A stretch of DNA of 64,000 nt. Source: Larus michahellis. Its lineage: Eukaryota; Chordata; Aves; Charadriiformes; Laridae. Position 1 is the stretch's first letter. Each line of letters begins with the position of its first letter. The stretch is taken from assembly GCF_964199755.1 (NCBI RefSeq), contig NC_133896.1, forward strand, positions 82,675,815-82,739,814. Direction: 5' to 3'. Position numbers and translations under genes: made by a program. Below the pieces are notes generated by a model. It saw nothing but the letters and a program-made list of their open reading frames with translations, searched no databases and was not told the DNA's origin. Positions 28,001 to 58,962 of this stretch are shown here, piece after piece.

Positions 28001-31000
28001 CAAGAAAATATTTCTAAATGTCAGACCAGCCAGCAACAAGCGAGAATATAAAAATCCAGCTGGATCTCTGCATCTTTTAAAATGTACCCAGTAGCAAAAT
28101 ATCTCCAGCTGGAATGCCGTGCAGTTTTAGCCGTGCAAAACACCAACTGAATGCCAGCTCCTTCTCACATTGCATGTAAAAGGCCCCGCAAGGTTCTGTG
28201 GAGAACTTAACAGGCACAGCTAGAAACACTTTGTCCACCACCCCTCTCTGGCAGACTGGCTGTACTCAGTCTCTGTCTTCATCCTTGGCAAAGCTCTTGC
28301 AATCTGTAACTGGCTGGATGCCCTTGTTCAACACGGCCATGTCACAGAGATGGTCGTGACTGGAAAGCCACACTGTCAGGCTTTATTCATGGGGACCATA
28401 TAATTCAGGGAGCAGGTTACTTTTAGCTCAGGAAAAGACATTCATACTCTTTCAGCTGCACGATCTGGGCTTAATCCAGTCTCCTGAGTTTGTCTGTGAC
28501 ATAATTAACCCTTACGTGATTTGCTTGAAGCCCTTTTTTCTGCCTTTTTTTTTTTTTGGTGACTGTCTGATCTAAGCATGTCGATTTTCTTCTCTGGCAA
28601 AGGTATCCATGATGCGTTTCTGCAGTTATAGATTTTTGAGCTTCCATCTGTTCCACAAGTATTTGGAAATACTTCTTTAGGGTTGTTGCCCAGCATCTAT
28701 GAAACAGCTCCTCTTCCTCCACACCGTGCTCTTTATTTCTGTTCATATCTCTTTTTCTCCAGACAAACAAGAATGGCTGCACTAATTTTACAGTGAAGAC
28801 GGAGACTCTGGAATTCAATGAAACTGACAGCTACATAGTTGTGATAGGACAAATGGTGGAAGATGGAACAGGTACTGGAGAATATATGAAACGTTCTTTT
28901 CCTTGCAGGCAACTTCTTTGGTTTTGGCCTTTCTGAGGCAGCTGAATTCCTTTTGGAAAAGTAACTTGAGGGTTCCCAAGTCTTCTGGCACGATGATGGT
29001 CTCTATTCTACTACGTCTTCCATCTATTATTACCATATTTCCTAATCCTCTCCACCCTTCATCTCCACTAGCATGTATATAACTTTTTAGTGATTGCCTG
29101 GACACCAAGGTGTTCCTCAGCCAGTTGCAAAGCCCTGGCTAGCCATTTTAAATTCTGCGACAAGCCCTTGTAGTCCTTGCCAACTGTAGTGCGCCATCCT
29201 GACAGGTAGTTCCCACCCATGCACAGTCTCTTGTCCTTTCTTTTCCTAAGCCTGAGACAGGGCTGCCTATGCACACTCCTGCTGTGAGGAATCCCGTTCT
29301 GCTCCCTTTTAGTCTGACACAACACTGACTACAAGGAGGTAGGTTTTCAGTATCGGTGTTAATGTGCACCTATCTCTGGCAGCTGGAGGTGTTCTTTGTT
29401 CGAACTGTCACACTGCAGGTGGCCTTCAGGCCACTTCTAGGCATCTACAGTGTAGCTGTCTATAACTAAACAGTCATTTAGTTTATCTTCAATAAAGAGA
29501 GATAAGTACTTACAGGGTACAATGCATCACGTCGTGAAGCAGAGGGCCCAGAAAGGTTGAGGGAATCACATCCTAGAAAAATGTATTTTCTCTCCTAAAT
29601 TTAGAGGTTGTAGATGTTGTAGATAGTGTTGAAGCATCTTCTTGTCTTCTACTTCACTAAGAGCCCTGCTAGGGTTTAACAGATTTCTCATCTCTCCACC
29701 CAGGAGCAGAGACTATGGAAACGGTTGGGATTCCTATTGCGACGAGAATGAAGTCTATAGAGTTTATCAACCTCCATTCATTCTACAAACGTGGACTACC
29801 ATACACAGGGAAGGTAACACCATGGATCCCTTCTCTGATGAGAATGCATCACAGGTCTAATCTTCTGTAGGCAGAAAGCAACAGTCTCCAGGGAAGTAAA
29901 TGCTGCTCTGCTGGTACATAGCAACTATGAGTGAAGTCTCCTGTAGAAGTAATTTCTTCTCCTCATCCTAGTATATTCCCTGGACAGGAATTTTGGAGCC
30001 AGCCGCAGTCTCTGCTGGTTTCTACGGGAGTAGCTCCTGAAACTAGCCTATGCAATAAAAGGCATATGGGATGGGGGTGGTGCCAGCAGGGAAATAACAT
30101 TCCCTTCAGACAAATGCTCATGGCAACTCGTCAGAAACCACTACAGCCTTGCATATCAGTTCACTGGCAGTCACTTCTGACTCACGTACCCTGCGTGATG
30201 TTAGGACTGCTGTCCCGTTGTGGCTAGAAACACTTTCACCTGGGCCAGTACTAACCCCAGCGTGAAGGAGGGCAAAGAATAGCAAGAGTTAAGTTGCTGG
30301 AGACAAGACTGTTTCTGATTGTCAGGGATCCTCCAGCATTGTCCAAGAAAAAGCTCAGGATCTGAGAAAATCACCTTTTTTCCCCAATGTAGGTGTCTCA
30401 TTTGGTTGCACTACCATTTATTTCTAGTCCTGAACAGCTGCACATTGTTGGTTTTGTGTATTCATCACACTTGTATTTGTATCCTTCCAACCTGTCTGAA
30501 AGATAGAAGGGCTGAGGAAGCCCAATGATAGAAACAATTAATATTAAGCATGGGCGGTGACTCGGAGTGTGGCACAATGGGGTATTAACTTCCTGCCCTT
30601 CTCTGCAGATGTTCTGCCACAGTGACGAGTCTCCGCTGAGAAATGAAATGGTCTACCTAACAGTTGACATCAATGATGAGGAGACACACCTGGCATTCCT
30701 CACAGATGAGAACGGGGAAGTCCACTTCTCTCTGGATACCACCAGCTGGAACAGCACACTGGTTTCTCTGAAGGTGAGCATCAGCCACAGGAAAAGGAGG
30801 ATAAAGAGAAGGTAGGCTGAGGAAAGGGATAGAAAGCGGAAGAAATTTGAGGTTTTGGAGCACAGTCCTCTGGCTCCTGATCTCATTTGTAGAATGATCT
30901 TTAATTACTCTTCAGTGCCATCTCCTCAGCGAAACTGGAGGCTGTGCTGCAACCGTTCAGCCAAATGGTTACCAAAGGTGCTCTACTGTCCTGAGCTGGA

Positions 31001-34000
31001 GCATGATCCTAATCTTTTGTATCTCCCCTCACCTTCCTTTGACTCCACTAAAAACGTCTGTTAATCTGAACACTGAATCTGAAAAGGAGGAAATCTCCCC
31101 TTCCTCCACTCTGGGACACGTTGGAAGTGGCTCAGTAGAACTGGCAGTTGACACCTGTCTCTGTTGAGCTCGACTTCTAGTGGCTGCCCGTGCCCTGCAG
31201 CAGCACATAGCTTGTCCAGGATCAGCTTGTCAGGTAGCTCTGGACCCCCCTTTCAATACCAGACCTTGAAGTACTTGTCTTCTTTTCCTCACAACTTCTT
31301 ATCCTACACCAGGAGCTCATTGTTACCAGTCTGGCAGTATACCCATCTTCCCGCTATCCGCATTTCTGCAGCTGATGTGGGATTCATGCCCAAGCAGTAC
31401 AATCTCCTATTGCCACCAGTTTCTCAGAGGCTGGAACCATTGCTCCAAATGTTTTTCCCTGAGACCCTCAGTCTACCCAGGGTGACGTCCCCTAATTTCA
31501 GTTGGGCTGGATTTGGTGATCAGAGGTTCTGTAATCTGGGAGGTAGATTTTTGACCCCAGTGAGCCTGGAGACAGGCTCAAGTTCTTGTTCCTACGCTTA
31601 TGGCTATTGTCTGCGGAGCCCTAAATTCTCTGGAGAGAAGTAGAACTCCACCATAAAAAAACTGGTTTGGTGTCTGTTGTGCTTCAGGGCATCTGACCAG
31701 AAATGCAAACTGAAAAACTGAAAACAGAGGTGCTGTGCTCGGTTAAAGTCTGATGTGGGATGTGGAAAGATAAAGGAGGAAAAATGAGATTGTGGGCAAA
31801 TCTACTTGATCTAGGTTTTTTCTAGAACTTCATAAGAGAAAGTCTCATAAGAGACTGTGAAATACCATATAAAAAAAAGAATATTTTAAGCATACAGATG
31901 TGTGGTCTGCCATCAGCTCAGGTAATAACTAAGTGTTTTCAGCAGGGGTACAAGCTCCTTTTTATCACTTGATACTGATTACCAACTCCTGTTTTTGTGT
32001 TCTGAAGGGTTCCTACAACCTCGGAAATCACGATGAGCAGAATTCTTCTGAAAGTCACTCAGGAGTCGAGGATAGCTTCCACTGGCTTAAAGCTTTCTAC
32101 TCTGAGAGCAACAGCTTCCTTGAGATAAAGGCCAGGAACGATGTGATGCCCTGTGACCAAGAGCACGAAGTGCAGGTGGATTATATCCTTGACTGAAATA
32201 AACTCAGCTCTGATGCAGACCACATTGATTTCCACTACTTGGTGAGCACAGAAGACAGATGATGCTTACTGGTACTTTATCCTTCTCACATAGCACATAG
32301 ATACTCACGGGAAAGGGTAAGCTGCTCCCAGGCCGGTATAAATCAGTTTGTGAGTTTTGTTCTCCCCAGACGTCCTCCTGTTTTCCAGTTCCTGGACCTG
32401 CTCCTAGACCCCAGCTGCTTTGCTTTGTTAGGAGTGCCTTGACATAAGCTTGGGTGATAAATGCCTGCCATTCACCCTACTTTCTATTATGTTCATATGG
32501 GTGACAGTGGAGGCCTAGCCTGGTTTCTGCCCAGCAAGTATGCCCCAGACTTCCACCTGTCTGTGAACTAAGAGGCAAGCTCTGGAGCAGCTGACCTCCT
32601 CTGGCCTGTGTCTTTACAATAAAAGTCTTGAAATTGCACAGGGCCTTGATGCACTTTAGAGGTATGTAATCGTGTTTTGATGAAGTCCACTTTCAAGAAA
32701 CTGAGTCCAAATCAAGAGTGCGAGTACAGCCTAGCTGAGAGGTTATGGCTGTCTTGGTTACTGAACTGGGCTTATTCATACAGTCAAAACATACTGTACC
32801 CTAGTAATGTGAAGATCAGAGTTCACTGAGGCTTAAGAGCAACTACTGTTTAGCTTCAGATGTAACTCTGGCTTTGCAAGCAGCCATGTCTTCTCGTTGC
32901 CTAACCAACACCTCTCAAGTACCTTCCCAGCTATGCTATCACCATCTCTGCTGCAGAGCTCTTTAGGTCACGTCCTGCCAGAGGAACTTCTGTGGCAACA
33001 TCTGCAGACATCTGTCTCTCTTCTCTTGTGCTTTTCCAACTCTCCCCACGCCTTCAGAATTCAGGCTGTTGAATGGCTCTTCTCTTTGGTCTTCAGGTGA
33101 TAGCAAAAGGCAAGATCCTTTTCAGTGGAGAGAAGAAGGTGCGAATTCTCCAGCAGGAGAGTGAGTAGAATGGCATGAAGTTGAGTGCCTCATAACACAT
33201 CCCAGAAAAGTGCAACCGCTATCCGGTGACAATCTTTGCAAGTGTTATTCTTATCCACGGGTGGGAGCTATTGAACTGAGTTCTTATGGTGTTCCACTTC
33301 ATTAGACCAACACAATCTCCTCTCGAATGCAGTTTAGTGTCCTTCTAGGTGACTGTCCTTCTTCTGTATTGTCTAATTGATCTAATATCCAAGCTTATGA
33401 CTTTACTGCTAGCTTGTATTTTTGGAGAAGATACAAAATTTGTGTAGCTTGCCTGTTTAAGGCAACCAACTGCACCCTAAGGTGCAGTAGGGAAGAGGAA
33501 TATTTTTGCCAACTTTGAGCCAAAGATGTGGCCAGTATCCTGGGTTTATTGTTAACCTTTATCAGTGTCTGCATGGGATGTTCTTATCTAGAGACAGAAA
33601 TTATTAAATTCTCTCTTTTGATTCTTATTGTGTGTCCTACACCAATGAGTTGATTCAATTGAATGTTTTCCACCTCTTCCTTGCTTGTATCTTGTACAGA
33701 TCTGCAGGGCTCCTTCTCATTGACTCTGACTATTGGTAATGACTTCCTCCCTGACATCAAGCTTCTACTGTATGCAGTCTTCTTGGATGGAGAGGTGGTG
33801 GCTGATGTGGAAGAGTTTGAAGTAGAAAAATGCTTTAGACACAAGGTGAGTAGAAACACAGAGTGTGATGGCATCATTGATGTGCTCTGACCTACTGTGG
33901 TTCCTGGTCCTGTTTTATCCCCAGCCAAGTGGTATAAGCTGGGTACACGCCAAACCAGATGCCCAGTATTTTTGTCTGGGAAACAAAACAGGCAACCTCC

Positions 34001-37000
34001 TTCTTCCCTGAATTCATAGTCCTGCCCTCCCTGACACCAGCTGCCAAGCCTTTCCCAAGGAGTAAACCAGGTCCCTCCTTGAACTCTGTTTTCTCCCCCC
34101 ATTCCCCGTGACTTGGGAACACACTGTCCCCTGTGCTCTCCCTAACACAAAAGAGAAGCCTGCCTGCTTAGATCCTTGTGATAGCTCTGGATCAGAGGGT
34201 GGTGGATGTGTGGTGGTAGGGGAATGCTGGCCGGGCTGTACACACTGCAGCCCCAGGAACCTTCCCAATGGGTTTCCAGAAGGGCCTGTCTCAGCATCTC
34301 AGCCCCCTTTGCTACCTTATTCTCTGTCTTTCCCTCTGCTGCCCAGACACCCGAGAGTCACAGAGTCCCACTCTCCAACAATAAGCCCCCTGACTCTGTC
34401 TTCTTTTACAGGTGGCACTGGACTTCTCGCGCAAGGAGGAAGTCCCTGGGTCAAAAGTCAGTCTGGACCTCAAGGCAGCTCCAGGGTCCCTGTGCTCTGT
34501 CCAAGCTGTTGACAAGAGTGTCCTCCTGAAAAATAACAATACCCTAACAGCAAACACAGTGAGTGCGGCCTGCCGTGACCAAGACCCTAATGTGTCCTTC
34601 TCTCTCCATGCATTTATGGGAGGAAGCCCATAGTCTGTCCCAGGACATGGCTGCAGTGTTAGGTGGATGCCCTGGCATTCCCCCTCCTCAGCCTCTTCTG
34701 AGCATGTGGTGATCATGTTCCTCATGCATCAGCCCTGCACTCTGGACCTCTGCCTGGGGAGTGGTGGACACCACACGGCGCTGCAGGGGCAGGCAGGGAG
34801 AGGAGCTTCAGAGAGATGCTGGTGCTTTCCACTTGGAGGGAGAGTGCTTAGCAGCTTTCCTCGCATCCACCTTCTCTCTGCTCCTCCATCTTCCACCAGG
34901 CAGTGAGGCTAAACCTTTGAAACTGAATTTTGCCCCAGTAGGGTCCTCCTATCCCTCTGCCCCAAACATTGCTGAATTGTAACCATATGACAGATGGCTG
35001 AGCACCTGAGCAGTTCTTTGGAAAACAGTAGCTAGGGGACAGCACCCAGTGCACACGGTGGCTGGTGAAAAGTGGTTAGGATTTTGTTGGCACCTGGGTG
35101 CATTCTGAGAATCTAGAAGGGTTGAAGAAACTCACCCGAAAGCAGCTGTGTGTTTCAGAGGAATGAACTTACAACTTAGAACAAAAATACTGCAAGAATT
35201 GAAAATCCCAACATAACTCCAGGATGTATACCAGAGATAATACATATGTATATGCCTCATGAAAAGTTGTAAGGTAAATTATAGGAGGCCAGACTGTTAC
35301 AAAGAAGCCTCACCAAATCCAGGGAGACTTGCTGCACCTGTAGATGGAACTCACAATGTGATCTCATGTTCCATTTTACAGGAATGCTGTTCTAGTGCAG
35401 AGCACTTGCATCATCTACTAACAGGCATATAAAGTAGTAATCATTAAATATGTAAGTCAGGTGTGCCAATGCCTTGTGCTCAAACTGAATCATGTGTTTT
35501 TATCCCAATCTTATACCCTAGAGTTAAAAGGATTGAACTGTCAGAGATGAAAGTCTGCAGACTAAGAGCTACTTGCCTACCCCCACTCCTTGGGCTTCAC
35601 GTCCTTCAGTATAAGCCAGGCCAGTGCTAACTTCCTCAACTGCAAATCTTTACAAAGTATAATAGAGGGCTACAATCCAAATATTTGACCCATACACATG
35701 CTTGTTGGCCAGTTCCTTATGAAGACCTCTGTTTTTCCATTGCAGCTGTATGAGGAGGTCTTTGATGACAGCTTTGCAATTGGAGGACGAGGGTTCCCTT
35801 ATCACTTGGAAGACTTTGAGGCATACCCTTGTCTGCCCCAGAAGTCCAGTCTCCACAAAAAGACTCGGATGGGAGCACCATGGTACCAAAGTGAAACTGA
35901 TGTCTTTAATCTGTTTAAGGTATCTACAACTGCACCAAACTTTTCCTGAGCCAGTGGTTGCCAGTATGTCATCTTGAATGCCTACAAGAATTTGCCCTCA
36001 GCAAACTTCAGCTGCCCTGGCTTTCATTGCTACAAGTCATCCGTACCCTGTTCTTCAGTGTAGCCACGCTCGTTCAGGGACCATGGGGAAAGATGAAACT
36101 TATGAGTAAGCATAGTGCAAAACACCTGAGTAGGAAAAGACAGTGTAAAAATGAACAAAGTTAGTTTAGGCTACCATATCTACAAGGGAGGAGTGGCAAG
36201 AATATCTCAGTAAGACCTGAGCACCGCACCATATTTTGACCGATAGCTGTTTGGCTATTATGTTATTTGCAAAATTCTTTACTCTGTGTTTCATTGAGTC
36301 TCTTCTTACTTCTCAAAGCATTTTTACTACAAAGCAGTCCTTCACAATTTGGCTTTAAAGCTAACTGTCAAGACAAATGACAACACAAGCTAATCTGCTA
36401 ACAAGCACAAAAGCCAGAAAAAGATTAACAATATGCCTGCTAACTGAAACCCAAGTAGTGCTGCTTCTGACAGAATGCTGTTTAAAGAAATATATGCAAG
36501 TAAAATCACCTCAAAATAGGAGAAGAGGGTAACAACACGCCAAAACCAACCCCAAATGGATCCTGAGTTGCATGGGCTTCTCAGGCTGACAGAACTCTAG
36601 CTTAAAAATGCAGGCCCTGGTTCCACCCAAAGGCATGGCACTCTGCTGTCTTCCAGATGCTTACTCCTAGACTATGTCAGATGCTAGTTAAAGAAGATCC
36701 CACTATATCTCAGTTATTAGTGATCCTGTAACAGATGACTGTCCTGTGGCATATGACTAAGTCCACAGGCATGGACAAGCTCTCACGAAGGCCCATGAAG
36801 GGTTTGGCACTTTAAGAAAGTGTAAGAGTTCTCAGTGACTCGCAGACCATTAAATGAAAGCGAAGATTGCTCACAGGATCAAATGCGTTCGTTTGGTGTG
36901 ATATCTTCTTCTCAGTCCATGCACGTGAGGGCGCATTCAGTCCAGTGTTTCCACCTTGTGAATCACAGGCCCTGAGAGTCTGACTCTCATTCACACAAAA

Positions 37001-40000
37001 GCAGAATCTATATTAAGTTGTGACCGAGCTCCCCCGCTAGTTTTCGAAGCCAGGACTGGTACTAACCTTTGTAAGAATGGTTGTGTATAAACAAACAGCC
37101 AGTCAGATCTTTCCATTCTAAAACTGTGCGGAGACTTAAAGCTTAATTATTTTTTTTCTCTTAAATTTTTCATGGGTTATATGACGTTTGACTCTGGCTC
37201 ATTATTAGGGTCAGGAATATGAAGGGCAGATCTTGTTGAAATTTACTTTTATGAAATGTAATAATTGGCCCCAGTATTCCCCAGAAGCTGGTTTTCATTC
37301 CTCGTGCATTGCCCAGAGTCTGAGCCTGTAAATCCATGTATGTGTATATAAAAAAGCAGCATTTTAAAGTGTTTCAGCTACCACCAGCCTCACTATCATA
37401 CCTGCTATCATGAGATGTTTTCAACATTCACCGTTCCCTTTTATTTATCATTGATTTACTCTCTTCACTCTTTTCCCAGAAATTGCGCATGAAAATATTA
37501 ACCAATACTAGAATCAAGAAACCAGTTTCCTGTATGCGACCAGGCTTTGAGAAAAAGATGTATTCTGGAAAAGAAAATGTTGTTGGTAAAGAATGGATGC
37601 GTCCACCTCCTTGCCTGAAGTGTCTGTCCTCTCCCAGTTCTGGCCAGCCTGCAGCTGAGAAAGCTGACTTTCACTCTGCTATGTCTCTTGTTTGTGTATG
37701 AGAGGAACAAAGCTTGTGTCCAGTTCAATGGACCTGATTTATAAATCACAGATAAAAGCTCAAATCTCTGTGCATGTGCATATTGGCTCTGCATATTGAC
37801 ATGAGATTGCAAATCTCATGTGCATATTGGCTGTCCCTGTGTTCTGTGCTCTTCACAGAAAATGTAGAGCGACTTCATTTGAGCATGCTGTCTCCCCCTG
37901 GATCCAGACCAAACTTGCTGGATCTGTTGGACTGAACCTCAGGCTAAACTCCATCCAACTTTGTCTCCCTAAGGCTGTGTTCCCCAAAGATACAGACACC
38001 GTGTCAGATTCTCACTGAGATGACAACCCTTGTTGTCTTTGCATGACTCTTGTTCTGTGTCACAAAGCATTCACGGTTTGTGTTAGATTGCCTGTGAATG
38101 AAGAACTAATTTCACCCATAGCTACATATGCTGTTTTCTGAGGTATCACTTGCTTTTCTGCAGAAAATCATGTTAGCTGTGGTGATTCTGCACCTCATTC
38201 TGATAACACGAAGAAGCCAAAACCACGGACACTTTTCCCAGAGACCTGGATTTGGGATTTGGTCTCCATTGGGTTGGTAACAGCTTCTACCTGCCTTCCC
38301 CAGAGAGACGCCTGGAGGCTTCTGATTGCTTCTGAGCAAGTTCTCCTCATTGTCTTCCTCCTGTAGGGATGAGGGGCAAGCATCTCTCCAAGTTGCTGTA
38401 CCTGACACCATCACAGAATGGAATGCCAACACCTTCTGTGTTGCTGATATTGGCTTTGGGTTCTCTCCTCTGGCTACTCTTAGGGTCTTCCAGCCTTTCT
38501 TTGTAGACCTGTCACTGCCGTACTCTGTGATCCAAGGAGAGACTTTCAGCCTAAAAGCCACTGTCTTCAACTACCTCAAGGACTGCATCCAGGTGAGTAT
38601 TCTCTGAATCACATGGCCTCTGTCGGACCAAAAGCTTGAGCCCAGAGATAAGCTATGAGCTTCTCGGGAGCCCTAGATACGGGCCACAAAGCACAGCCTC
38701 GCGCTTCATGACCCATGGTGTTTGCTCCTTTGTGCAGTGCCTGGTACTAATGCTACGTCAATGTGTGCTTGTACACCCCACCACATTCAGGTGCGCACCA
38801 CCCTCACAGAGACCCCAGAACTAAAGGTGAATGCCTGTCCAGGCTGCCAGTTCACCAGCTGCCTCTGCGCCAATGAAGCAAAAACCTTTGAGTGGAATGT
38901 GACAGCCACCACGCTGGGTGAGGTGGAGCTGAGGATGTGTGGCAGCTAGTGGGTGGACGAGTGGGATTTCCCTGCCTCTGCATGTCTGCTCCTGATGCCC
39001 ATAGGCACAGCTGTCTGCCGCAAGTGCTCAGCAATGTGTCCCCATGCTCCCTGCAGGCAAAGTGAATGTCACGGTGAGCAGCGTGGCAGAAGATTCACAC
39101 GATCTGTGTGCTAACAGGATTGCTGTGACACCTTTGCAAGGAGAGAGAGACACAGTGATAAAACCTCTGCTTGTGAAGGTTAGTCACACCTCTGAGTAGA
39201 GAACACCTGGGGACAGTGGGTCATCCCCTGAGGCAGTTAACAAGATGCTAAGAGGAAGTTTAGCCCCTTCTTGGAAGCAGAGAAGTCTGCTGAGGCAGGG
39301 TGACTTCCTCTCCTGCCTTCCCTATCTAAACTGCTCTATCTCTATCTGCAGCCAGGAGGTGTGTCACAAGAAAAGACCCAAAACGCCTTTCTCTGTGCTG
39401 CAGGTATGGGACAAAAATCCCTGACTACTGTTGATCATGAGAGCAAGATGGAAGGGACAGGGCTACTGTAAATACCCAGAGGTGGAGGGAATTTGTCAGA
39501 GAGCAAGTGCTGGTGGCACCATTCCCGCCTGGGAGAAGACGCGCTATATTTTGTCCATGTCTGTCTTCTACCTGGCAAAGTTTCCTGTCTTGAGGAATTT
39601 CTTTGCGAGCCTTGGCTGCTGTGACTCAATGTCACACTAAGTCTCAGCTGGGTCTCCTTGGGATGTTACACTTATGTGTGATACTTCTTCCATGGGATAA
39701 ATTTCTGGGTTCTGCCTTCCTCAGATAACGCTGTCTCCGAAGATTTCTCCCTGACACTACCTGCAGAAGTGCTGGAGGGATCTGGCCGAGCCACTTTGTC
39801 TGTGATTGGTGAGAAAGGCTTTCCCTGCTCTTGGGTCCCCAGTGGGAAGAGTTTGCACAGCGCTTTGGCCTTAATGATGTATCAACCCAGTTCCTCATGA
39901 GATAAACTGTAGGAGTGTGATGTTGGCCTCAGAAATGTGGATCAAGTAATCTTTTTCAATATTTATTCCTCTCATAAAGAATGATCCTGGGTGATCCCCA

Positions 40001-43000
40001 AATGGTGGGATATCTCCTCTGACTTCTCTCACTGCAATCCACCTAAGTGAACCAAAACCACGCCTGCAGATTTCCACCTAACCTCTATAATTCTTCTCCC
40101 TCCTAGATACCCACTCAGGAATGACAGCTCTCTTCACCTTTCTTCAGATTCCCTCATCTTCACATTCCCTCCCTTGTCCCAGAATCATGATGTCTTCCCT
40201 TTCTGTGCTGGACTAATCCAGGAGGGGTCAGCAGAAATCTTAATCATCTCCGTTCAGTGAGGCGCTGGCTCTTTTCCAGGATCCCAGTAGAGCTTAGAGA
40301 AGGCAGCAGTCCCTTCATTTCATACTGCTGAATTTCTGTGCTTTTCCTTTCTCCTGACCCTGCACCTCAAACTTAAGGGGACATCATGGGCCCAGCACTT
40401 CAAAATTTAGACCACCTGCTAGACCTGCCCTTTGGCTGTGGTGAACAGAACATGGTTCAGTTTGCACCAAACATCTTCATACTCCAGTACTTGAATAAGA
40501 CTAAACAACTGGACCCAGAAATTGAAGATAAAGCACTGATATTCCTGAGAACAGGTAAACATCATCCTTCTTCCTTCTGCTGCAAAATGAAGGTGCTATA
40601 CATCAAGAGTGTGGGGCACTGGTCTGGTGGGGATGTGCAAGGCGGGAGTGGGAGCACTGCCAGAGCTGTGATAAAGGAAGATATCACAGAGAATAAGGGA
40701 AATGTCTCATGGAAGGAAAAACATGTTTCTGAAGAAGGTTGTCTGTCGCTGCCTGTTATTGCAGTATTAAGTCTGCTTTTCTGAGAAGGGTGTGCGTAAT
40801 TAATGATCTCCATCATTACATGATACCTGTGGTTTGTTCCCTTATCAGTCCAAGGCAGACGAAGTCCCTTGTGGAAACAGGGCAGCACCTGCTATTATTT
40901 GGAATAAAGAGTGGCCTTTGGGGATAGATAGAAGTTTAGTAGCTTAGTGTTCCCCTGTGTTTTAGGACACATATTGTGGGGGCACATCAGCTCTGTCCAA
41001 TATAATCTGAATTTAATACTGTGCCCTTGTCTGTGTCCGATTCTGCAATGTGCCTCACGTTCCAGCTAGCTGTTGTGCTGAAAAACAAACAAGATTTCAT
41101 AATGTTCCCCTCTAGGAAAAGTCTTCCTCCTCATTCCTACATCTCTTTTCATTCACAGTAAGGTGCCTGTGAGGGTTCCCTGGGGCACAGGGAGACATGA
41201 AGTGGCGGAGCATGTCCCTGTTCTGCAAAACCAGCAGGGCAGATACCCACAGTACTGGCACATAGTAGCTCCAGTAACATAGAGCAGCTGCGTGGCGCAC
41301 TTCAGTGATGCTGTGCAACTGCCTCTTGTCATGCTGATGCTGTGGGATGCGTGGGGAATTGTGGGGTGTTAGGTTTGCCTCAACGTCGCTGACTGTAGGG
41401 TCTGGTGAAGTCTCTTGCGGTGAAGCCTTCTTCCCACAGCAAGGATACAGTTTGAAATGCTACAGGTCCTTGCACTGAGAATTGTGTCTTGGCACCTGTC
41501 TTCATAGGTTACCAGCGTCAGCTGCTCTACAAACATGATGATGGCTCCTACAGCGCCTTTGGGAAAGCTGACAACCAGGGCAACACATGGTGAGTGACCG
41601 AAGTTGGTACTGTCACCCTAAACCTACTGTCCTTGGTGGTTCAGCTCCTGTCTGTGACATGTATTCCTTCGTGCTCTGCTTACAGGCTGACAGCTTTCGT
41701 AGCCAGGTCCTTCGGACAAGCCAGCTCTCACATTTACATCAATAAGGATCATGTAAAAAGTGCTCTGCTCTGGCTGCAGAAGCACCAGCTGCCCAGTGGC
41801 TGCTTCCAGAGTGTGGGGAAGCTCTTCAACAATGACTTGAAGGTACGGCTCCCAGAAACGGGAGTGGGAGTGGGAATGGGAACGGGAACACAGTGTGGGG
41901 CACAGGGCTGCTTCCCCAGGCTCTTCCACTGTGCACAGTAGCACAAACCAATGTCCCCACGGCTTAGCACAGCCAAGGCAGCTTTCCAGAGCAGAATGAA
42001 AAAGTGTGGCCTAGAACAGCAGGCATTTCCTCTATGTGAGGTTTTAGTCTCTGATAGGCTTTTTTCATTTTTAATCTATCTGAAAGGCACCATGGCTAAC
42101 GGTGCCAAGGCACTTCAAGGGCACAGGGAAAAATATCTTTATATTTTAGTCCTTGTCTAGAATACCCTGGCTAGATTCTCCCTCTTCTCATGCCTTATGA
42201 TGCACGATACTGTCCAGATAGGCCTGACTATGTGTTCTAATATGGGATTATCTGAAGACTCAGTTGTCCCTCTGCTGCCCAACAAGTATGACTTCTCCTG
42301 AAGCCTGGCATTCCCAAAATGATCCCTGCAGTCTAGCTGGAAATGAATCAAACTCTTGGTGAACATGCCCTAGTACTCAGGTACCAAACGGTGTGCATGC
42401 AAGTGGCAATACTTGGGTTCATTGTCTTTGTAAAGGTAAGAATAATCCAGACTGGATGGATTGCAAAATTGCCCATATTAAATACAAGGCAAGTTTATGA
42501 AAGAAAGCAGGCTGCTATTTTAGTGGAACAAAGGCTACACTTTTTTCCTTAAAATTTGTATGCAGTACAAAATAAAAACAGAGTGTACGTGTAGACTGTT
42601 CATCCTTGTCTGGCTTTCATTAATTTCTCAGCTTCTGCTTTCTATTTGAACAGAACCTTTTTGAATAGGTTTTGCCCCCCACCCTGCTTGCACTTCAAAG
42701 TTTTTGCTATTCAGTGTGAATGATGCTTCTCAGCATCTCAGCCCAAATTTCCCCCTTCATTTTAGATGTAGTCTTGTCTCATGTCTGAGGATGCAAGCAG
42801 AGCTTCCCCAAGAACGAATGTCATCTGATAGGAAAAGAGGCTCCTGTGAACCTGTCTACCCGTATTAACTTGTAGCTTCTCACAGTTGCTTGAATTGTAT
42901 GTAAACTTGCATTGCTTCTTGTGTGCAAACCCTGCATCATAAAAACTTTGTTCATGTGTCAAATTGTAACATATTTAATAAAATACATAGCTCAACAGTT

Positions 43001-46000: not shown

Positions 46001-49000
46001 CCTCCAGTAGCCTGCCGGCAATTCTCCCTCAAAGAGTGAGAAATTCTTGCACAAAAGACACAAGTGACTGGAAATGAGTCCTAGAGCTTTTCAGCACAGG
46101 GAGCCCCGTTAGACTAGGTAAATGCAGAAATGCAGAAACAGCAAAAAAGCTGTTGAGTGGGGACATAGCTTTGAATATACACAGAGACGAATAAGGCTAG
46201 GACTGTACTTTAAACTAAAAGCTTCTGTTCAGAGTCAATCATTTTCTAGAGGAACTAGGATTGGGGGACTGGATGTCTCTCTGTGTTTTCAAAGGAAGCA
46301 ATGGAGCCTATCATAGATGGCCAGCCCTTCGGAGTGCAAAAACAGCAGGAGGCTTCTGCACTCTGAGGTGCCCCAGAAAGGCACAGGCATTTTGGATGGT
46401 GTACAGGGAACTGGCAGTCCTCGAGGGGTACCAGGGCAGGAAAAGCTGTTGTTCACAGGGATCTACTGTTCTTCTCTTCCACACGTTTCTCCCCCCATTG
46501 GCAGAGCTCCTGACATCACATTACAGTAGTGAAGAATCTTCTTCTTCTGTGATTGAGACAGTCGCCTACATCCTCCTGGCTCACATCTCCAAACCAGACT
46601 TGGCATTCAACGAAGCCTCAGTGAGCAAGCTTGTGCGCTGGCTCAGTGGACAAAGAAATGCCTTTGGCGGACTTGCTTCTACACAGGTAATAAGCTGGGG
46701 AAAGGAGAGAAATACTGTGTCTGGAATGCTGTGCACGTCTCTCATACACATGTCGCTCTAGATCCCTCCTTTGCAGACAGGCATACATGAGCTCTGCTTG
46801 GGAATGGGAATGACATGGGGAAACTCTTTTTCTGTGTGGTGCAACTGGGATTACTCAGGTTCTGGGACTGCTAACCACAGGGCTCAGAAGCCACCCTTTC
46901 CAGATAACAGAAGTCACCCTGCTGCCTGTACACTTCGTGGCATAGACCCCGCTTGAGTAAGAATGTGAATCAGGGCCACAATGTGTGTTGTTCTCCCTGC
47001 AGTGCTTGACTTAGTGTGCCAGACCTTGTACCACATGGCTCCATAGCAAAGTGACTCTCTCTCTTTCCCTTCAGGACACAGTCGTTAGCCTGCAGGCCTT
47101 GGCTCAGTATGCAGCCCTGATTCCCCAGGAGATCAGAGATGTAAAGGTGACAGTGAAAGGCAAGGCGGCTTCACCACTGGAGTTCCATGTGCACAGGAAC
47201 AACAAGTTGGTCCTGCATCAGGCATCTCTCCGTGGAGTCCCAGGGACATACACAGTGCAGGCGACTGGCAGTGGCTGTGTCTATGTACAGGTGAGTACAT
47301 ATAAGGAACAGAGCTGCCAGGTTTTGCCACTGACTCTTCAAATGAGGTTTGGCTCTAAGCAGGCACTACAGCCTCAAATTCTGAGTAAGATTTGGCTTCC
47401 TAGGCAGAATCATGTCAAATTTAAAGGAGGTCAGGCATACTCTGTTGACATGGCTTTATTGCAGCCATCTATGGTATCTTCTCAGAAATGTCTCAGCTTT
47501 GCTATCCCAAGCTACAGAGACATGTAATTGTTAAGAGATCAGTAAATCTGAAGTCAGGAGTAATGAGATACAAAAGAATACCTGCTTTTATATCAAACAT
47601 ATGTGGCTGATGTCACTGCTTCAGGAGCTGAGCACTATATATCTTCTGACATAGTATTCTTTGGGTTGTTATCACATGCATAGATGGGGAGTGACATAGG
47701 ACCAAGGTGTTCTTATCCCAGTACACCAACACAACTAGTCCATCAGCATGCATCTTATTTTTTGGGCATCTTTGATAGTGGTCTGTTTATGAGCCATTCA
47801 TGCAGCAAAGAACTGGAGGATCAAGTCGCTCCCTGTGGAAACCTCCCTCACTGGGTCACTTCTGTTCAGCCACCTCTTACGATGTTCACAGAGAATCTAT
47901 ATGCAGTGCACAGACAGGAGGACACAACAATTATTTATTGCTAATGCATGTAGGAAGTTGCTAGGACTCATACTACTTGGCTACACTCGAACATAGTTAA
48001 TAAGCATGAGACATCTAATGAGTACCTGCTGGCCAGACAGTCAGTCACCAGGCAGGTGGAAGAAGGTTGGCCTATGCCGCTCTTTGGAGGAGCATGATCA
48101 TCCCTCTTGCCAAGTTGGCCTCTTCTGATTCTCTGCTCTTTCTTTCTGTCGTAAGGGTTTTGTACTTGTTTTGTCAGTATTTTTCCCCTTGAGACCTAGA
48201 ACTACTATTATCACGTCAACAGGTAACAGTTACACTTCTTTCTCCTTGCGGGCAGGGTTTTAGCTAATGTACTTTCTCACATCTTAACAATATTTTTTTT
48301 TTTTTCAGAAAGACTGAGGCAATGTTGTACTGAATGAGGCCTTGGATCACAGATAGCTGTGCCTCCAGGCTGAGGGTTACATTTGTCAGATGTGCCTGAT
48401 GCTATGTGCTAAACACAGAACGTCTGAACTGAAAGCACACCCGGGCCCAACTGTCTGAGCCACTGGTTACCAATTCATTAAAAGCTGGAGGCACAGCTAG
48501 TCCTTTGGCTCATACAGGGAAGCTCCAGGGCACTTCACAGAGATGTTTTCTGTCCCACCAGACCACTTTGTACTATAACACCCCACCAGCAAAAAAAGAA
48601 GATGTCTTTGTCCTGGATGTGGAGACAGTACCAAGAGAATGTGATGGTGTCAGGAAACAGCTTGACATCCATGTGTCTGTGAGGTATGAGATCCCTTGAG
48701 GCTCTTTCTTCAGTGGAAAGAAGTGGGAGCCCCAGTAGCATGACCAGAACCCCATAAAAACCTTCTGTCTGTGGAGACAAAGACAAACAGGCACACTGTC
48801 TTCTCTGTAGATCCCAAAGAGATTGTGAACTGAAAATTAAGGTCTGGGGAAGTATGGGAAGGCACTGGCAGAACCGCAGGAATTACCTCAGTCAGCATGG
48901 AGCAACTCAGCAGCCCCCAGAGCACTAGGCAGCATTCCCAAGAGCCAGACCTCTTGCCTTGGAGACACTCAGCAGCCTGGGCTGAATCAGCCCTGAGGTG

Positions 49001-52000
49001 CATTCTCCTGCAGCGTGAACCTCTGCGGAAACCAGACAGCAGAAATTTCAGTCCCTATCCACATTTCACTTGCCTGCATCTGTCTAGGATAAGTGTCTTG
49101 GTCCGTATTGTCCTGTCCTGAAAGAGAACGATGCCAACATTGTCACTCTCAATCCGTAACATCAAAGATCACTTCCACCTGTTGTGGAGGGCAGCACGAA
49201 CATTAACCATAACACATTTGGTACATAATCTGTCTCCATACTGAACAAGTAGATGGGGGTATTTTTTTTTCCCTTTCTCCCATCAGCTAGACAAGCTGCT
49301 GAGCTTTCCCATCACTGTAGAGCAGGCCAGAGTTTGGCAGGGTTCATTGGTATCTCCTAGAAATTCTCCTAGAGATGCCTTCCACATCTAATGTACTTCT
49401 CTCCTGCCTTTTTTTCAGTTATGTAGGGGACAGTGAGACCAGTAACATGGTCCTGGTGGAGGTGGAGATGCTGTCAGGGTTCATTCCTGTGAAGAGCTCT
49501 GTGAAAGAGGTAAGACTTTTTCCTATGGCCTTCCTTGAAAATATGATAATCTATTTTCCAGATGTAGCTCAACCAGAAATACCCAAACCTCTAAGAGCTG
49601 CTGGAGAATGGTGGCTACTATGAGGTTATCTTACTACAAGTTAACTAAGCAAGTACAGATATCGTGGGCTATTTCAGCAGGCAACTTTCCACTTGCAGAA
49701 CTGATGGTGCAGTTTTTCATGTTCAGTAATGAGGATCACATATGTGTCAAGAAGTTAGAGACGAGCTGAAAAGCACCTAGTTAGAACCATCCAGGGTGCA
49801 CTGAGACCCTTCACTGTTGCCAGTGGCATTTGTAGAGATATTCTATAAAGCAGTGTTGGGCGCTCCAGGATATAGCCAAAAAGATCCATCATATTCTCCT
49901 ACTAACCATCTTTCCCTTTGCTACAAGTGCTGAAAACAGGAATGTGGTTCAAGGACACTTATTACAAAGCTGAAAAAAATCTTTTCTAATGCTTTGAGAG
50001 CTCCCAACAAATCTCAGTGCCGTTATAGTTGGGGAACGCAGGTCTTCCTTGACTAGGCTAAGTGCTTCAGTCAGCAGTGTTTCACTGACAAATACCAAAC
50101 TTAGTGTAAGACAACAGGGAAGGCCAATGAGTTGGTGCTAACCAAGCTCATCTCTTGCCTTCCTATACAGCTGGAGAAGATACCTCTGGTGAAAAAGACA
50201 GAGATAAACCCAGACAAAGTCACGATCTACTTGGAAGAGGTAAGAGGAAGACCACAGGGAGCTGCCCATTCAAGTAGTAGCAACTGCAGTACTTCGCATT
50301 GGGACTCTCAGAGATCAGAAATACAAATCTCTAGGCTGGTCAAGCAGGCTAAAATTTTGGCAGAAGAGGAAGAGGGTGGAAGAACCTGGAAAGATGAGAA
50401 AGAAATCTCTGATGCAGAGAGAATAAAGTTGATATGTAGGAGACTTTGAGATGGTCAGTACGTTTCTGCTCACTTCTATTCTTCTCTCCAGCTGGGTGAA
50501 ACTTCTCTGAAGCTTAACATCTCAGTGGAACAAGATGTTGAAGTGCAAAACCTGAAAGCAGCAACAGTGTGCGTCTACGACTACTATAAGCCAGGTGAGA
50601 TTTCACTGGGATAGGCAAAGCGTAACCATTATAACCCCAACTCAGACACAGTTCTGTCTCTGCCCCTTACCCCCTTATCTCCCTTGTTCCAGTGCATTTC
50701 CTCCTGCAACTTCAAGGTTGGGTTTTCTCTGTACAAAACTTCTATGTTCAAGTAGCAGAATCACTTGCTTTTCTGTTCTTGATGTGAGGCTGTCTGGCGC
50801 TATGATTATGTTGTGGTGTATATGTGTTCAAAGTGACTGCGCTTTTTGACTTCCTCTGTCTTCAAGCTACCTCTCTGTGGAAAGAAAGCTTCTCTGACAA
50901 TTTACCATGTCTTTTCCTGCTCCTTAGCTCACTTGAAAATATGTAGGCATTTATTTAAAATCAGTGTTACACGCTGCCAGCCCGATCCATCAGAAGGTAG
51001 AATTTAGATCTATGCTTTTCATGTATAGTGTAATAATCCTACCATATCTCAGAAGATAATAGGAAAATAATTTCTTACCCTTTAAAGTTCTAAATTAACT
51101 ATCAGCACACAGAAGAAAGATCTTGGAGTCATTTTGAGTCTCAGATTACTTCATGCTCGGTATCAGCCAAGCCAGCAGATGGAATATTAAGAATTATTAA
51201 AAAAAAAAAAAAAGAATTTGAGAACAAAATGGAAAAGCTACCACTGGAGATTTAGAAAGCAGCACCATAGGCTGTTGTATACTGAATTCCATTCCTGTTC
51301 TCCTTTCCATACCATGTCAAGCAGAGAAGACAACCTCTTAATCCAGCATTTACAGAGCTAAATATTGTCACCTAATATGCTCTCTCTTTGCTATTCCATT
51401 CTGTACAAGAATTTTTGTGCTTAGTATATGCAATTTAAAAATTGTTATCTGACATGACGATAGTCATTATCAGCAAAAACCCAAGGCCACCAGGATACAC
51501 TACTGAAAGGCTCTCTATTTACAAAAACGTCCTTGCGTAAGAAGGTATCACAATGCATAAAAGGGTCTTTTACAGCTGTACAGGAGACATGTTGGGGAGA
51601 CAGACCACTGGTCCAACCACTGTAGACATTTTCTGTTCCTGCATTCACAGTCTGAAGAGTAAAAAAAATTAAGGTAGCAGAATGGTTGTGTTAAAGAGAA
51701 AGAAGTTTGCCATTACCCTGCCATGCAGTTCTGCAGCTCACCACCCTTTCTCTTTTGTTTCTACAGATGACCGCACAGCAGGAGAATATGTTTTCCCTTG
51801 CAGTTCAGGTTAGTGTTAACAGGCTTCCAATGTAGGAAACACCTGAAACAGAGCAGAGGACTGGCAGTAAGCAAGCAAAGCAGCCCACCTCTGTTCTGTA
51901 TTTAATTCCACCACATGCTGTAGAGCCTTCTTGTACTGCAGGTTGAATTGGGATCTATTTGTCATGGTTTGGGATGGGTTGCCTAATGACAAGACGGCAG

Positions 52001-52888
52001 ATGCTCCCCTCCACCTCTTGCTCCAAGGAGAGGAGGAAGAGAGATAGAGAGATTTGTGAGTTTAGGAAAAACTAAACTACTTTAATGAAATATTAATAAT
52101 AAAATAATAATAAAAAAGGAAATAATAAAATAGATACAATATATGCAAATAGACACAAAACCATATCAAGCTCCTAGGGAGATGTCACCGGCAGGCACTG
52201 TGAAAGTTCCAGACTGGACTCAGTGACAAATGGGAACAGGAACACACTGACCAGGATCAAAGGGCAGATGAGCTGACGGGGTCCTCCTCAGACGTCAGTC
52301 ATCAAAGAAACAGTCCTTTGAAGAAGAGCCCACTGGAGAAGATTCAAAGAAAAAGAGTCTTTGGAGAGGAGCCAACCTAACCCCTTTGCTCCCTCAGCTT
52401 TTACAACTGAGCATGGCAGATGGGATGGAACACCCAACTGGTCAGCTTGGGTCACCTCACCTGTCCACAGGTGTAACCCTTCCAAGTCAGCGGACCCTGG
52501 TTGCCACAGCAACAAGTGTAAGCAAGAGCCTCTCTCACTGAACAGAAAGATGGCTCTGCTCCACCCCAAATCAGGATACTGTTGTGCTAGTTGTGGGCAC
52601 AGTTTCAAGTCTGGCTATAATCTCAATGCAGACCAAGGCTTGAATATACCACGGAAGGTTAAAAGGATATATTTTTATACCTTTTACATACAATCCTCAC
52701 AGATCCAGTCCTAGCAGCATCCCAAATCCGAATGCAACTGGAAATGCCTATGTCAGTGACAAAAAGATGTTGCAACTCATCTGCTAAGATCTCTTAGTCC
52801 TTAGATATCTTCCTAAAAAATTCAGCAGGCACTGTGCCTTTTCTTGCTCTTTCTTTCCACAGATGTGTTGAAGAAGGATTCCTACTAG
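21989..52888 (+). CDS. Alpha-2-macroglobulin-like protein (A2ML1-like), 37 coding exons, with an in-frame TGA in exon 13
   Basis: Exons: 21989-22056, 22690-22873, 24138-24182, 24521-24665, 25192-25244, 25582-25602, 26142-26301, 26905-26989, 27367-27481, 28763-28871, 29704-29813, 30609-30773, 32008-32241, 33097-33160, 33700-33845, 34412-34558, 35746-35919, 37480-37585, 38164-38272, 38367-38592, 38791-38917, 39057-39178, 39352-39403, 39725-39808, 40378-40554, 41508-41589, 41686-41842, 43267-43341, 44075-44228, 46505-46686, 47075-47290, 48562-48683, 49419-49509, 50171-50239, 50492-50594, 51767-51808, 52863-52888. They sum to 4347 nt (1449 codons with the final stop), the normal family length. 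Every junction is AG/GT and in phase. Domains in order: signal peptide, MG1-MG6 with the bait inserted (residues ~620-745), MG7, CUB/thioester domain (GCGEQ ~970-974), receptor-binding domain (~1310-1435). A premature TGA at codon ~483 interrupts an otherwise open frame. This is a young pseudogene, a polymorphic null or an alternatively spliced functional gene. Confidence 0.9.
24138..24665 (+). CDS. Plus-strand gene exons 3 and 4: family exon 3 split by an extra intron
   Basis: The minus-strand paralogue has one 163-nt exon here, beginning [11 protein letters not shown]. This gene has a 45-nt exon (24138-24182, [15 protein letters not shown]), a 338-bp intron with GTAAGA and AAACTGACAG borders, and a 145-nt exon (24521-24665) reading [11 protein letters not shown] then [12 protein letters not shown]. 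Both borders are phase 0 and the [10 protein letters not shown] motif aligns with [10 protein letters not shown]. The total is 27 nt longer than in the paralogue. Confidence 0.75.
25551..25578 (+). repeat. Poly-T tract upstream of the micro-exon
   Basis: An almost uninterrupted run of T ends three bases before the acceptor AG of the 21-nt exon. It probably acts as its pyrimidine tract. The length of such a run is often unstable in sequence data. Confidence 0.7.
25582..25602 (+). CDS. Plus-strand gene 21-nt micro-exon
   Basis: Seven codons (YSQIWLQ) between a long T-tract acceptor and GTAAGT. The paralogue has the matching 21-nt exon at 16006-15986 (HRLVELK). Size and phase (0-0) agree with the family's small exon between the two halves of MG2. 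Confidence 0.85.
32008..32241 (+). pseudogene. Plus-strand gene exon 13 with an in-frame stop (TGA at 32194-32196)
   Basis: The exon reads from [11 protein letters not shown] to EVQVDYILD, then TGA, then [15 protein letters not shown] up to a good donor (TTG/GTGAGC at 32242). The residues after the stop align with the equivalent MG5 strand of the paralogue ([16 protein letters not shown]) and with the phase-0 acceptor of exon 14, so the exon clearly continued through this codon. A single C-to-T change at a CpG (CGA to TGA) explains it. Read literally, the product stops after about 482 residues and lacks the bait, thioester and receptor-binding domains. A cryptic donor, CAG/GTGGAT at 32176, is in frame and would skip the stop. 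Confidence 0.9.
35746..38272 (+). CDS. Plus-strand gene exons 17-19: bait region
   Basis: Exon 17 (35746-35919, 58 codons) runs [16 protein letters not shown] to [10 protein letters not shown] and is rich in acidic and aromatic residues with Arg/Lys sites (HKKTRMG). Exon 18 (37480-37585) runs [18 protein letters not shown], then [14 protein letters not shown], and is strongly basic. Exon 19 (38164-38272) carries [21 protein letters not shown], closing with the conserved PETWIWDL. The bait offers many trypsin-like and some chymotrypsin-like sites. Its sequence shares little with the paralogue's bait, as expected for the fastest-evolving part of the family. Confidence 0.85.
37800..37820. repeat. 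Palindrome CATGAGATT-gca-AATCTCATG within a repeated motif
   Basis: A perfect 9-bp inverted repeat with a 3-bp loop, flanked by copies of TGTGCATATTGGCT (left copy starting near 37775, right copy near 37819). Lies in the intron between exons 18 and 19 of the plus-strand gene. Confidence 0.7.
40378..40554 (+). CDS. Plus-strand gene exon 25: thioester exon
   Basis: 177 nt, phase 1-1. Encodes [20 protein letters not shown] and then [14 protein letters not shown]. The GCGEQ codons are at 40434-40448, with thioester Cys at ~971 and Gln at ~974. The reactive site is fully preserved although a stop lies upstream. Confidence 0.93.
41686..41842 (+). CDS. Plus-strand gene exon 27: thioester domain with Asn at the isotype position
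   Basis: Encodes [18 protein letters not shown] to GKLFNNDLK, followed by GGVDD in exon 28. The residue facing the thioester in this family precedes ...KGGV/IGG; here it is Asn ~1085 (codon 41828-41830). From family knowledge, A2M has Asn and C3 has His here, and human A2ML1 has been reported with His. Confidence 0.85.
41860..41886 (+). other. Five G-triplets next to a 5' splice site (G-quadruplex candidate)
   Basis: GGG repeats separated by AGT/AGT/AAT/AAC begin 18 nt after the exon 27 donor at 41842, on the coding strand. Loops of three bases fit the G-quadruplex rule, and intronic G-runs close to donors can act as splicing enhancers. Sequence pattern only. Confidence 0.5.
46505..46686 (+). 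CDS. Plus-strand gene exon 30: atypical 5' border
   Basis: The clear part encodes [20 protein letters not shown] then [18 protein letters not shown] to FGGLASTQ, matching the end of the thioester domain in A2M. The acceptor at 46501-46504 has a strong pyrimidine tract, and 182 nt restores phase 0. With this border the usual family stretch with a conserved Trp upstream is missing. Alternatively the exon starts at 46295 behind TCTGTGTTTTCAAAG, also in frame (392 nt, no stop), beginning [19 protein letters not shown], which resembles the missing stretch. I saw no strong in-phase donor between 46334 and 46450 that would make it two exons. Confidence 0.65.
48562..50594 (+). CDS. Plus-strand gene exons 32-35: receptor-binding domain
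   Basis: Four exons (48562-48683, 49419-49509, 50171-50239, 50492-50594) encode TTLYYNTPP.., [40 protein letters not shown] and [20 protein letters not shown], ending YDYYKP. The helix with two Lys spaced by four (VKSSVKE) matches the pair used by A2M to bind LRP1. Order, phases and lengths are standard for the family. Confidence 0.87.
51960..52720. mobile_element. Probable LTR-type insertion in the last intron of the plus-strand gene
   Basis: Starts with TGTCATGGTTTGGGATGG, carries an A/T-rich block of AATAATAAA units (52085-52140) and then unique non-coding sequence, a composition seen in avian ERV long terminal repeats. No retroviral reading frame is present, so a solo LTR is the best reading. 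I could not find a clean target-site duplication, so the borders are approximate. Confidence 0.4.
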
Positions 52889-53090
52889 AATGCCCTGGCT
52901 CTGCAACCAATAATCTGAGTTTTCTGCTTCCATAAGGAAAACTTCATTGCTCTGGCTCTCCTCTTCCCTGCTGTGTTGGATGCACGCTATTTCCTTTGAT
53001 CTATGCCCTAAATTTTTATGTGAAACTTAGCTTGATACACAGTAGTTTGGGATCAAGTGGAATAAAGTATGTGGAACCTGGAAAGAAGGC
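52863..53090 (+). CDS. Plus-strand gene last exon: eight codons, stop and 3' UTR
   Basis: After TTTCCACAG the frame gives DVLKKDSY and TAG at 52886-52888, following ...EYVFPCSS in exon 36. The Pro-Cys near the C-terminus is where A2M-type proteins carry a conserved Cys. The 3' UTR is about 200 nt, ending after the AATAAA at 53061-53066; the exact cleavage site is estimated. Confidence 0.8.
53061..53066 (+). terminator. Polyadenylation signal AATAAA of the plus-strand gene
   Basis: First AATAAA after the stop codon at 52888, followed 10-45 nt later by GT-rich sequence (TATGTGGAACC, CAGTTGGTG). Cleavage would fall around 53080-53095. Confidence 0.7.
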
Positions 53091-54500
53091 AGTGACTTGA
53101 CAGTTGGTGAAGTCTGCACATATTTTAACACCTGAAAAAGAGAGAAACATTACTTAGGTCATGGTTACATACTTTGCTTTTCGTCACCATAGTAGCTTAA
53201 GTCTTCCTCTCCTCCCTGAGTACCATCTCTGGGCTACCTTCTCAAGAGAGTTAACACAACAGTTTGCCTGCAACCAAACTCCAAGCAAAAAAAAAAAATC
53301 ATTTTAAATCCTGGTCTGTTTCACTGCATGGCCCTGTGAATCACCTTTCTGTCACAACTGAAGAGCAGGAACAGGCAAGGGGAGGCTAAGGGAGAACTAC
53401 TTTACCAGTTCTTCCAGACAGAAAAGGACCATGCCTTATGAAAGGAGGCCATGAGACCAAAGTAACATCCTCTCTCTCTCAGGGTGTCTCCTTCTGCTCC
53501 GAGACCTGCTAACACTCCCATGAAGGCTCCAGCCCGCCTCCTGCTCCTGGGACAGTCTCTCCTCTGCCCGATGGTGTTCCTTGTCAACCCCTACATGCAG
53601 TCGAGGGGCCATAATTCCTGGTTCTCTGTCTCCCCTTCACACTGCCCTGCTCCTCCACTGCCCACACTATAACCCTCGGGCCCAGTCCCCACTGCCCAAG
53701 TGGCCTGCCTAAACTGCTGCCAGAGCTGCTTGTCCCAAGCACTTTTGTTCCCAAAAACGTCCCTGCCTTTTCCAAAATTCCCTGGACAGAAAGCATTCTG
53801 TCCACTCATGTGTTTCTTCTCTCTAATGGCTGGCAAACCTGTCTATCCCTAGTTGACCTAACCCTCCTGCCTGCTGTATATGCCTCTTTTCCATCTTTGC
53901 AAGACCCCTGCATACTCTTCCTCTTGTTTTCTATTCTGCTTTTGTCTTCTTTTACATCATTCGTTCCTTTGTATTTCTCCATTTCTCTTTTAGGCAAAGA
54001 AATTTTTCACACATACTATGCATTTCTGCAGTTGGTGTCCTTTTCATTGTAATCTCTCCCTCTGAATTGTATTGTTCTCTTTTTTTTTTTTAAGCTTTGT
54101 TTGTGTACCCAGGCATCCCTCATTGAACTATAATTTCAGCACTAACTACACCTTCTTTACTATTGTCTTTTATATCTTGTGACACTACACAATGTTCATC
54201 TTTTTTCTGTAAACAATCAGAAATGTCTCACTCTCTAGGTGTGATTTGTGGCATCACTTTCCTTTCCCCCTTTCCTTTTTGGAAAAATTGCAGGGCCAGT
54301 CACATAGCAATGTGTGTCCCTTCCTGTTTTCTTTGAAGGTCATCATCTCCCTGTCTTGGACTCTGACTTAGATGATGACTTCCCATAAAACTGGGTTCAG
54401 TTTTCCCATTTCAACTACCCACGCCCAGGCCTGGTGGATGGGTCATTCAACAGCCTCAGTCACTGTGCTTGTTTAGACTCTGGCAACACCCAGTCCCATC
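53091..54500. other. Intergenic stretch without a recognised gene
   Basis: Long C/T-rich tracts on the plus strand (about 53480-54260) and no exon-like open frame with family similarity. Nothing else recognised. Confidence 0.6.
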
Positions 54501-54779
54501 CTCTTAAGACATTAACTCAGATGGCTAATCCTTACCTGTGGCACTACTGAAAAAAAAAGATAACAATCTGAGGAATTTCAGGATGCAACGCATGCAACAG
54601 GACAGTAGAGTGCATGCAGATGGCTCATCAGGATATGCAGTGCCATTAGCAGGGTGTGGTGGTGTGCTCTCCCCCTTTCCCCACCCCCCGGCTCCTGCTC
54701 AAGGCATAACTGTCAGTGGGAGTTGTGATGAATTGCACTTGGACTTTGGGGGACGGCTGGCAACACAGCCAAAACACTG

Positions 54780-55369
54780 TCTGGCGTGGGGACCGGGATA
54801 TTTTGTTCCCATGCGAATATGACTATAGGTCAATTATCCTTACTCTATAACTAGTGGACAGCCCAAGAGCCTTTTGAGCTCTCCTGCACGGCAGCGGGCT
54901 GCACGCCAGGATCTGCCCTAGAGTGGGGACACTCGCTTAAGGTTCCACTCCTCGAAGCTGAGAGATTCCTTGCCACAACAGGTTCTCGGTAAGTGACTAA
55001 TAGCATGCTTCACTTTGAAATCTTAGCTAAGTGATATAAAGGACTGATTGCGCATGTGTAATCCTTTAGACATAAACTGTTGACCAGGTCTGGGACTAGG
55101 ATTGGATCCAGCCGCACCCAGACTCCTCTCTGAGAAGGAGTTTAGAAAGCAAGGGAGTCCTTTCTGAACCTCGTGACTCCACAGGAGGGTCTCCCTGACA
55201 GCTTGTCTGACCCTGGCCTCTATGCAGTAAATAACCAAGCATACCGTGCCATCGAATCTCATAAAACACTGTCGCATTCACTACTAACTTTGTTAAATCA
55301 CTGTTTTATTTAATAAATATTTCATACTACTCTGTTACAAGTGAAGTTAATCACTCCGCCCACAACACA
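54780..55369 (+). mobile_element. Probable solo LTR (first of two)
   Basis: A promoter-like TATAAAG at about 55036, an AATAAATA signal at about 55312 and an end at CCGCCCACAACA give an LTR-like U3-R-U5 layout. No gag, pol or env remnant follows. The family is not identified and the left border is a guess. Confidence 0.4.
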
Positions 55370-55371
55370 AG

Positions 55372-58960: not shown

Positions 58961-58962
58961 TT

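Follow-up and report, generated by a model that had tools for sequence, protein, structure and literature searches.

Truncating alleles of A2ML1 have been described in humans, including the frameshift allele p.Ser829Trpfs*9 (PMC5088646) and knockouts reported from a biobank (PMC12114030), which suggest that A2ML1 nulls can segregate. In birds, A2ML1-like proteins have been reported from the egg vitelline membrane (PMC6992205), and A2ML1 is described as an outlier locus in prairie falcons in a report that also cites work on sparrows (PMC5885362). For the class of mutation considered here, a described parallel is PAX6, in which CpG transitions are reported to make up more than half of the nonsense records, and a single codon carries both CGA>TGA and CGA>CAA, giving R44X and R44Q (PMC1156885).

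Here, a stretch of 64,000 nucleotides from Larus michahellis (termed the window) was found to carry an A2ML1 gene with a single premature stop codon. The allele in the window resembles the human truncating alleles as reported (PMC5088646, PMC12114030) in affecting the same gene and in having living carriers; however, those are other variants, whereas the window has a nonsense change in a bird, seen in one haplotype. Like the reported PAX6 pair R44X/R44Q (PMC1156885), the stop sits at a codon that relatives read as Arg or Gln, but the ancestral codon of the window is deduced from proteins, unlike that of PAX6 R44X. We propose, with a probability of roughly 0.83, that the window holds a real and very recent null allele of A2ML1, which arose by a germline C-to-T change at a CpG and is more likely segregating than fixed.

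Overall organization of the A2ML1 gene

The gene was reconstructed by aligning a gull/razorbill A2ML1 reference to the window with splicing allowed, and the terminal exon was placed by motif search. Its features are as follows:

21989-52888, plus strand: A2ML1 gene, 37 coding exons from start codon to terminal stop (spliced alignment)
32008-32241, plus strand: exon 13 of 234 nt, symmetric (phase 0-0), encoding residues 421-498 (spliced alignment)
32194-32196, plus strand: premature in-frame TGA in exon 13, codon 483 of 1449 (sequence and spliced alignment)
35746-37585, plus strand: exons 17-18, flanked by the Pfam matches to BRD and A2M, predicted site of the bait region (domain order)
40378-40554, plus strand: exon 25, with the thioester motif GCGEQNM intact (spliced alignment)
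48309-48333, plus strand: candidate alternative terminal exon, located after exon 31 and before exon 32 (match to gull model ends)
48562-52888, plus strand: exons 32-37, open, covering the receptor-binding domain and the C-terminus (alignment and Pfam)
52863-52888, plus strand: last coding exon, exon 37 (motif search)

All 36 introns have GT-AG boundaries, and the spliced alignment has zero gaps in either direction. The coding sequence comprises 4347 nt and is free of frameshifts, with stops at codons 483 and 1449 only. The premature TGA lies 45 nt before the exon 13 donor, with 24 exon junctions downstream. The preliminary description of a lone TGA in an otherwise complete 37-exon macroglobulin gene, with frame, splice sites and thioester preserved in the 24 exons after exon 13, is thus borne out by the spliced alignment. 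Pfam search gave matches above the curated cut-offs to MG2, MG3 and MG4 upstream of the stop, and to the bait-region domain, A2M, TED and receptor-binding models downstream of it. Exon 13 itself takes in the last part of the MG4 match and the first part of the region matched by the bait-region domain model. When a second nucleotide copy of this exon was sought in the window, exon 13 was the sole match.

Homology search revealed that, among the best 120 of 542 homologues, the best matches to the window exons are the A2ML1 proteins of Chroicocephalus ridibundus (1282/1303 residues identical), Rissa tridactyla (1275/1295) and Alca torda (1322/1420), and A2ML1 is the name given to most of the 120, the best match included. 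The Alca torda model (P0003) carries a LOW QUALITY flag and lacks 11 residues close to the end of exon 30. The tree places the window together with C. ridibundus, a member of the Laridae, inside the three gulls (support 80). Judged by its sequence, the window gene is A2ML1 of the alpha-macroglobulin family. Bird A2ML1 and the window protein align across their whole length, the difference being the window TGA in exon 13. Human A2ML1, for which a structure has been solved (7q1y), matches the first 454 residues of the window protein (E 4e-70), and at the position aligned to codon 483 the human protein has Pro, whereas the window has TGA.

The candidate terminal exon at 48309-48333 has two acceptors 4 nt apart, which give the endings KD* or TEAMLY*. 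These match the ends of two gull models, TEAMLY that of the black-headed gull and KD that of the kittiwake, both of which lack the receptor-binding domain. A search with the part of the protein that holds this domain found no gull protein with it among the best 120 of 219 matches, the best being from the razorbill; because cluster members are hidden behind the listed representatives, there may be gull models of full length.

A second alpha-macroglobulin gene lies upstream in head-to-head orientation on the minus strand (17810-338), has the thioester motif GCGEQNM and extends beyond the start of the window. Its exon matches are ~50-77% identical to A2ML1, and it seems, from its alignment, to be open over ~1000 residues. 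Between its exons, positions 3742-4477 hold a reverse-transcriptase-like remnant, which we take to resemble a bird CR1 LINE. Downstream of A2ML1, the segment 60001-64000 is G+C-rich (0.564) and is possibly the start of the next gene. Among the protein models retrieved, one from swallow (P0121) joins macroglobulin domains to PF00536, a SAM domain, and one from pigeon (P0137) with macroglobulin domains is named Phc1.

Residues at codon 483 and the origin of the stop

Column counts were taken from the best 120 of the 542 homologues, of which 108 have a residue at the codon 483 column. The composition of this column is Gln 61, Arg 28, Pro 6, Trp 3, Lys 3, Ser 2, Leu 2, and one each of Gly, Glu and His, in addition to 12 gaps; eight of the gaps come from models in which exon 13 is garbled, the other four from clean exon skips. 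A stop or X occurs in none of the 108, in line with the earlier expectation that the family has a sense codon here. In the nearest relatives, the residue is Arg in C. ridibundus and Alca torda and Gln in Rissa tridactyla, while Trp is found in Nyctibius, Apus and Falco (P0013, P0022, P0024). The three following columns are mostly Asn (96), Lys (102) and Leu (100) among the 120 proteins; these neighbours being conserved, the changeability belongs to codon 483 itself. On a tree of 117 rows, 104 of which have a letter at this column (four garbled rows were dropped), codon 483 accounts for 27 changes, as many as are found in 39 of 1441 scored columns with this one included, against a median of 5.

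Arg in the nearest gull and the razorbill and Gln in the kittiwake are the outcome that CpG decay on both strands of a CGA codon would be expected to give. Trp would fit a relative with CGG, and the mixture of Arg, Gln and Trp as a whole is consistent with recurrent decay of an arginine codon that contains a CpG. The origin suggested earlier, CGA to TGA at a CpG, is therefore well supported by the proteins, with Arg in the nearest gull, Gln in the kittiwake and Gln, Arg or Trp in other birds. Beyond mutability, the changeability may partly reflect a tolerated surface position.

Enumeration of all 13032 single substitutions of the coding sequence showed that 522 create a stop, only six of which are CpG transitions. 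A uniform random error would thus land on one of these routes in about 1 of 87 stop-making cases, whereas natural nonsense alleles include a large proportion of CpG transitions, as reported for PAX6 (PMC1156885), and we judge that the class of the change favours a real mutation over an error by a factor of at least 10. It is nevertheless conceivable, at rather long odds, that the TGA arose as an error of base calling or assembly and that the codon of the animal is intact. The isolation of a single lesion within a constrained gene speaks for such an error, and some long-read chemistries err systematically at methylated CpG sites. Against it stand the absence of indels and of any other internal stop across 4347 nt, the fact that the change belongs to the most mutable type, and the matching Gln and Trp that relatives already show at this column. 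The neighbouring minus-strand macroglobulin offers a weak check on sequence quality: it aligns over ~1000 residues with its sole stop at a forced alignment end, although its bait region is poorly modelled and the aligner is able to bypass stops.

Exon 13 as a possible cassette

An allele with this TGA could be hypomorphic or tolerated if exon 13 were an optional in-frame cassette, since its skipping would bypass the stop and leave an A2ML1 of 1370 residues. The exon has the necessary geometry (234 nt, phase 0 on both sides), and exon 12 is joined straight to exon 14 in four of the 120 listed homologue models, three from parrots and one from a duck (Neopsephotus bourkii X5, Pezoporus flaviventris X5, P. 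wallicus X5 and Cairina moschata; P0044, P0046, P0047 and P0106). For P. flaviventris and P. wallicus alike, all that separates model X5 from model X2 is exactly the 78 residues of exon 13 plus one inserted Val, and within each species the two models lie on equally long contigs. In addition, the exon 13 acceptor ends in AAG, one of two such acceptors among 36. Nevertheless, neither gull model skips the exon, and its splice scores are unremarkable, with the acceptor the 14th weakest and the donor the 11th weakest of 36. Loss of the MG4 end together with the start of the next domain may yield a product that does not fold. Moreover, the skipping forms are predicted models, of which that of Cairina moschata also lacks further exons, and exons other than 13 are absent from some models too. 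Given the four skipping models, the allele may be less than a complete null; they make a bypass possible, but not likely as a rescue, and we regard this explanation as quite unlikely.

A broader form of the same idea is that the optional exon 13 gives a shorter macroglobulin with rebuilt MG4/MG5, and that the TGA is tolerated, or is kept as a switch either to this shorter protein or to a short N-terminal one; this, too, would be a surprising outcome. If the switch were true, a parallel for the short form would be the turkey model P0134 (ovostatin homolog isoform X2), which has 487 residues, shares 83% identity with chicken A2ML1 across 498 columns and ends, with VSKEDI, six residues beyond exon 13. 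In the window, the start of intron 13 (32242-32262) reads VSTEDR followed by TGA, so the turkey model looks like a read-on into intron 13.

Recoding and the age of the lesion

Recoding of codon 483, whether by read-through, as selenocysteine or by RNA editing of UGA to UGG (Trp), deserves hardly any credence. Trp in 3 of the 108 homologues suggests that an edited product might be tolerated; however, Cys occurs in none of the 108, and the TGA is followed by AAT rather than CTA, as had been noted and as is read directly from the sequence. The base preceding the A of the TGA is G, and ADAR disfavours G before the edited A, which counts against editing. A search of the whole window with Rfam at the gathering score gave zero matches, and a permissive Rfam search over 51700-60000 gave seven weak matches, none of them SECIS. 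Three pairs of inverted repeats of at least 14 nt are present in 30700-33800, none over the TGA, and the 200-nt context of the TGA folds no better than shuffles (z 0.06). The edited or read-through codon entertained in the preliminary description thus found no support in the Rfam, inverted-repeat and folding searches.

The age of the lesion was assessed from protein changes along the three gull branches. Counted two against one, derived amino-acid changes number 6 in the window, 11 in C. ridibundus and 14 in Rissa; after removal of changes to the majority letter, the numbers are 5, 10 and 11. Tip lengths are 0.0061 for the window, 0.0117 for C. ridibundus and 0.0091 for Rissa. The window branch is thus the shortest of the three, which indicates that the lesion is very young, because a long-dead gene should show the opposite; the earlier suggestion of a very recent event fits this timing. 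Relaxed constraint, the mark of an old loss, is accordingly not seen in these protein data. Among the window changes, A1100V alters a column that is invariant in 117 of 117 rows, a weak hint of relaxation, and R716C also fits a CpG transition. Both other gulls have likewise changed at near-invariant columns, and Rissa lacks two exon 13 residues beside an otherwise invariant Trp, so other gulls also carry odd changes here. Relaxation of the receptor-binding domain, hinted at by the gull models without it, was looked for and not seen: this domain differs from that of the razorbill at 10 of 142 residues, against 81 of 1270 in the body, and has diverged about like the body.

It is highly improbable that the gene is a long-established pseudogene, already inactive during much of gull history: the premature stop, the LOW QUALITY flag of the Alca torda model and the Chroicocephalus and Rissa models without the receptor-binding domain would suit it, but they are outweighed by the shortest branch, the absence of indels, the uniform GT-AG splice sites, a receptor-binding domain whose divergence is close to that of the body, and sense codons at the site in both other gulls and the razorbill.

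Discussion

The reading we prefer is a young null allele. A C-to-T transition at the CpG of an arginine codon would have created the stop in exon 13 very recently in the gull lineage. With 24 splice junctions after the stop, nonsense-mediated decay is expected, and the mRNA carrying the TGA would probably be destroyed. Any residual product of 482 residues would be devoid of the bait region, thioester and receptor-binding domain and, from the mechanism of the family, would not trap proteases, so that the allele would presumably be null. As the rest of the gene is undamaged, a segregating loss-of-function allele in the sequenced haplotype is likelier than a fixed loss. In agreement with a polymorphic or unitary pseudogene, the disabling lesion is accompanied by a sense residue at the site in two gulls and the razorbill.

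A search among cluster representatives for proteins that end at the stop gave 23 matches among 7997 scored (0.55-1.75 times 482 residues), of which none is named as a gull's and four are unnamed. The lesion is unreported in the titles and abstract openings examined from the literature on avian A2ML1, bird macroglobulin pseudogenes and loss of function, and the main text of PMC11576641 makes no mention of A2ML1 or OVOS2. On the best reading, the allele adds one more case to a familiar class, being a nonsense allele of the ordinary sort at a CpG hot spot.

If real, it would represent a naturally occurring null, in a wild bird, of a protease inhibitor associated with eggs, and one that has yet to undergo any secondary decay. 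Should it be segregating, the allele would offer a natural test of the role of this protein in eggs.
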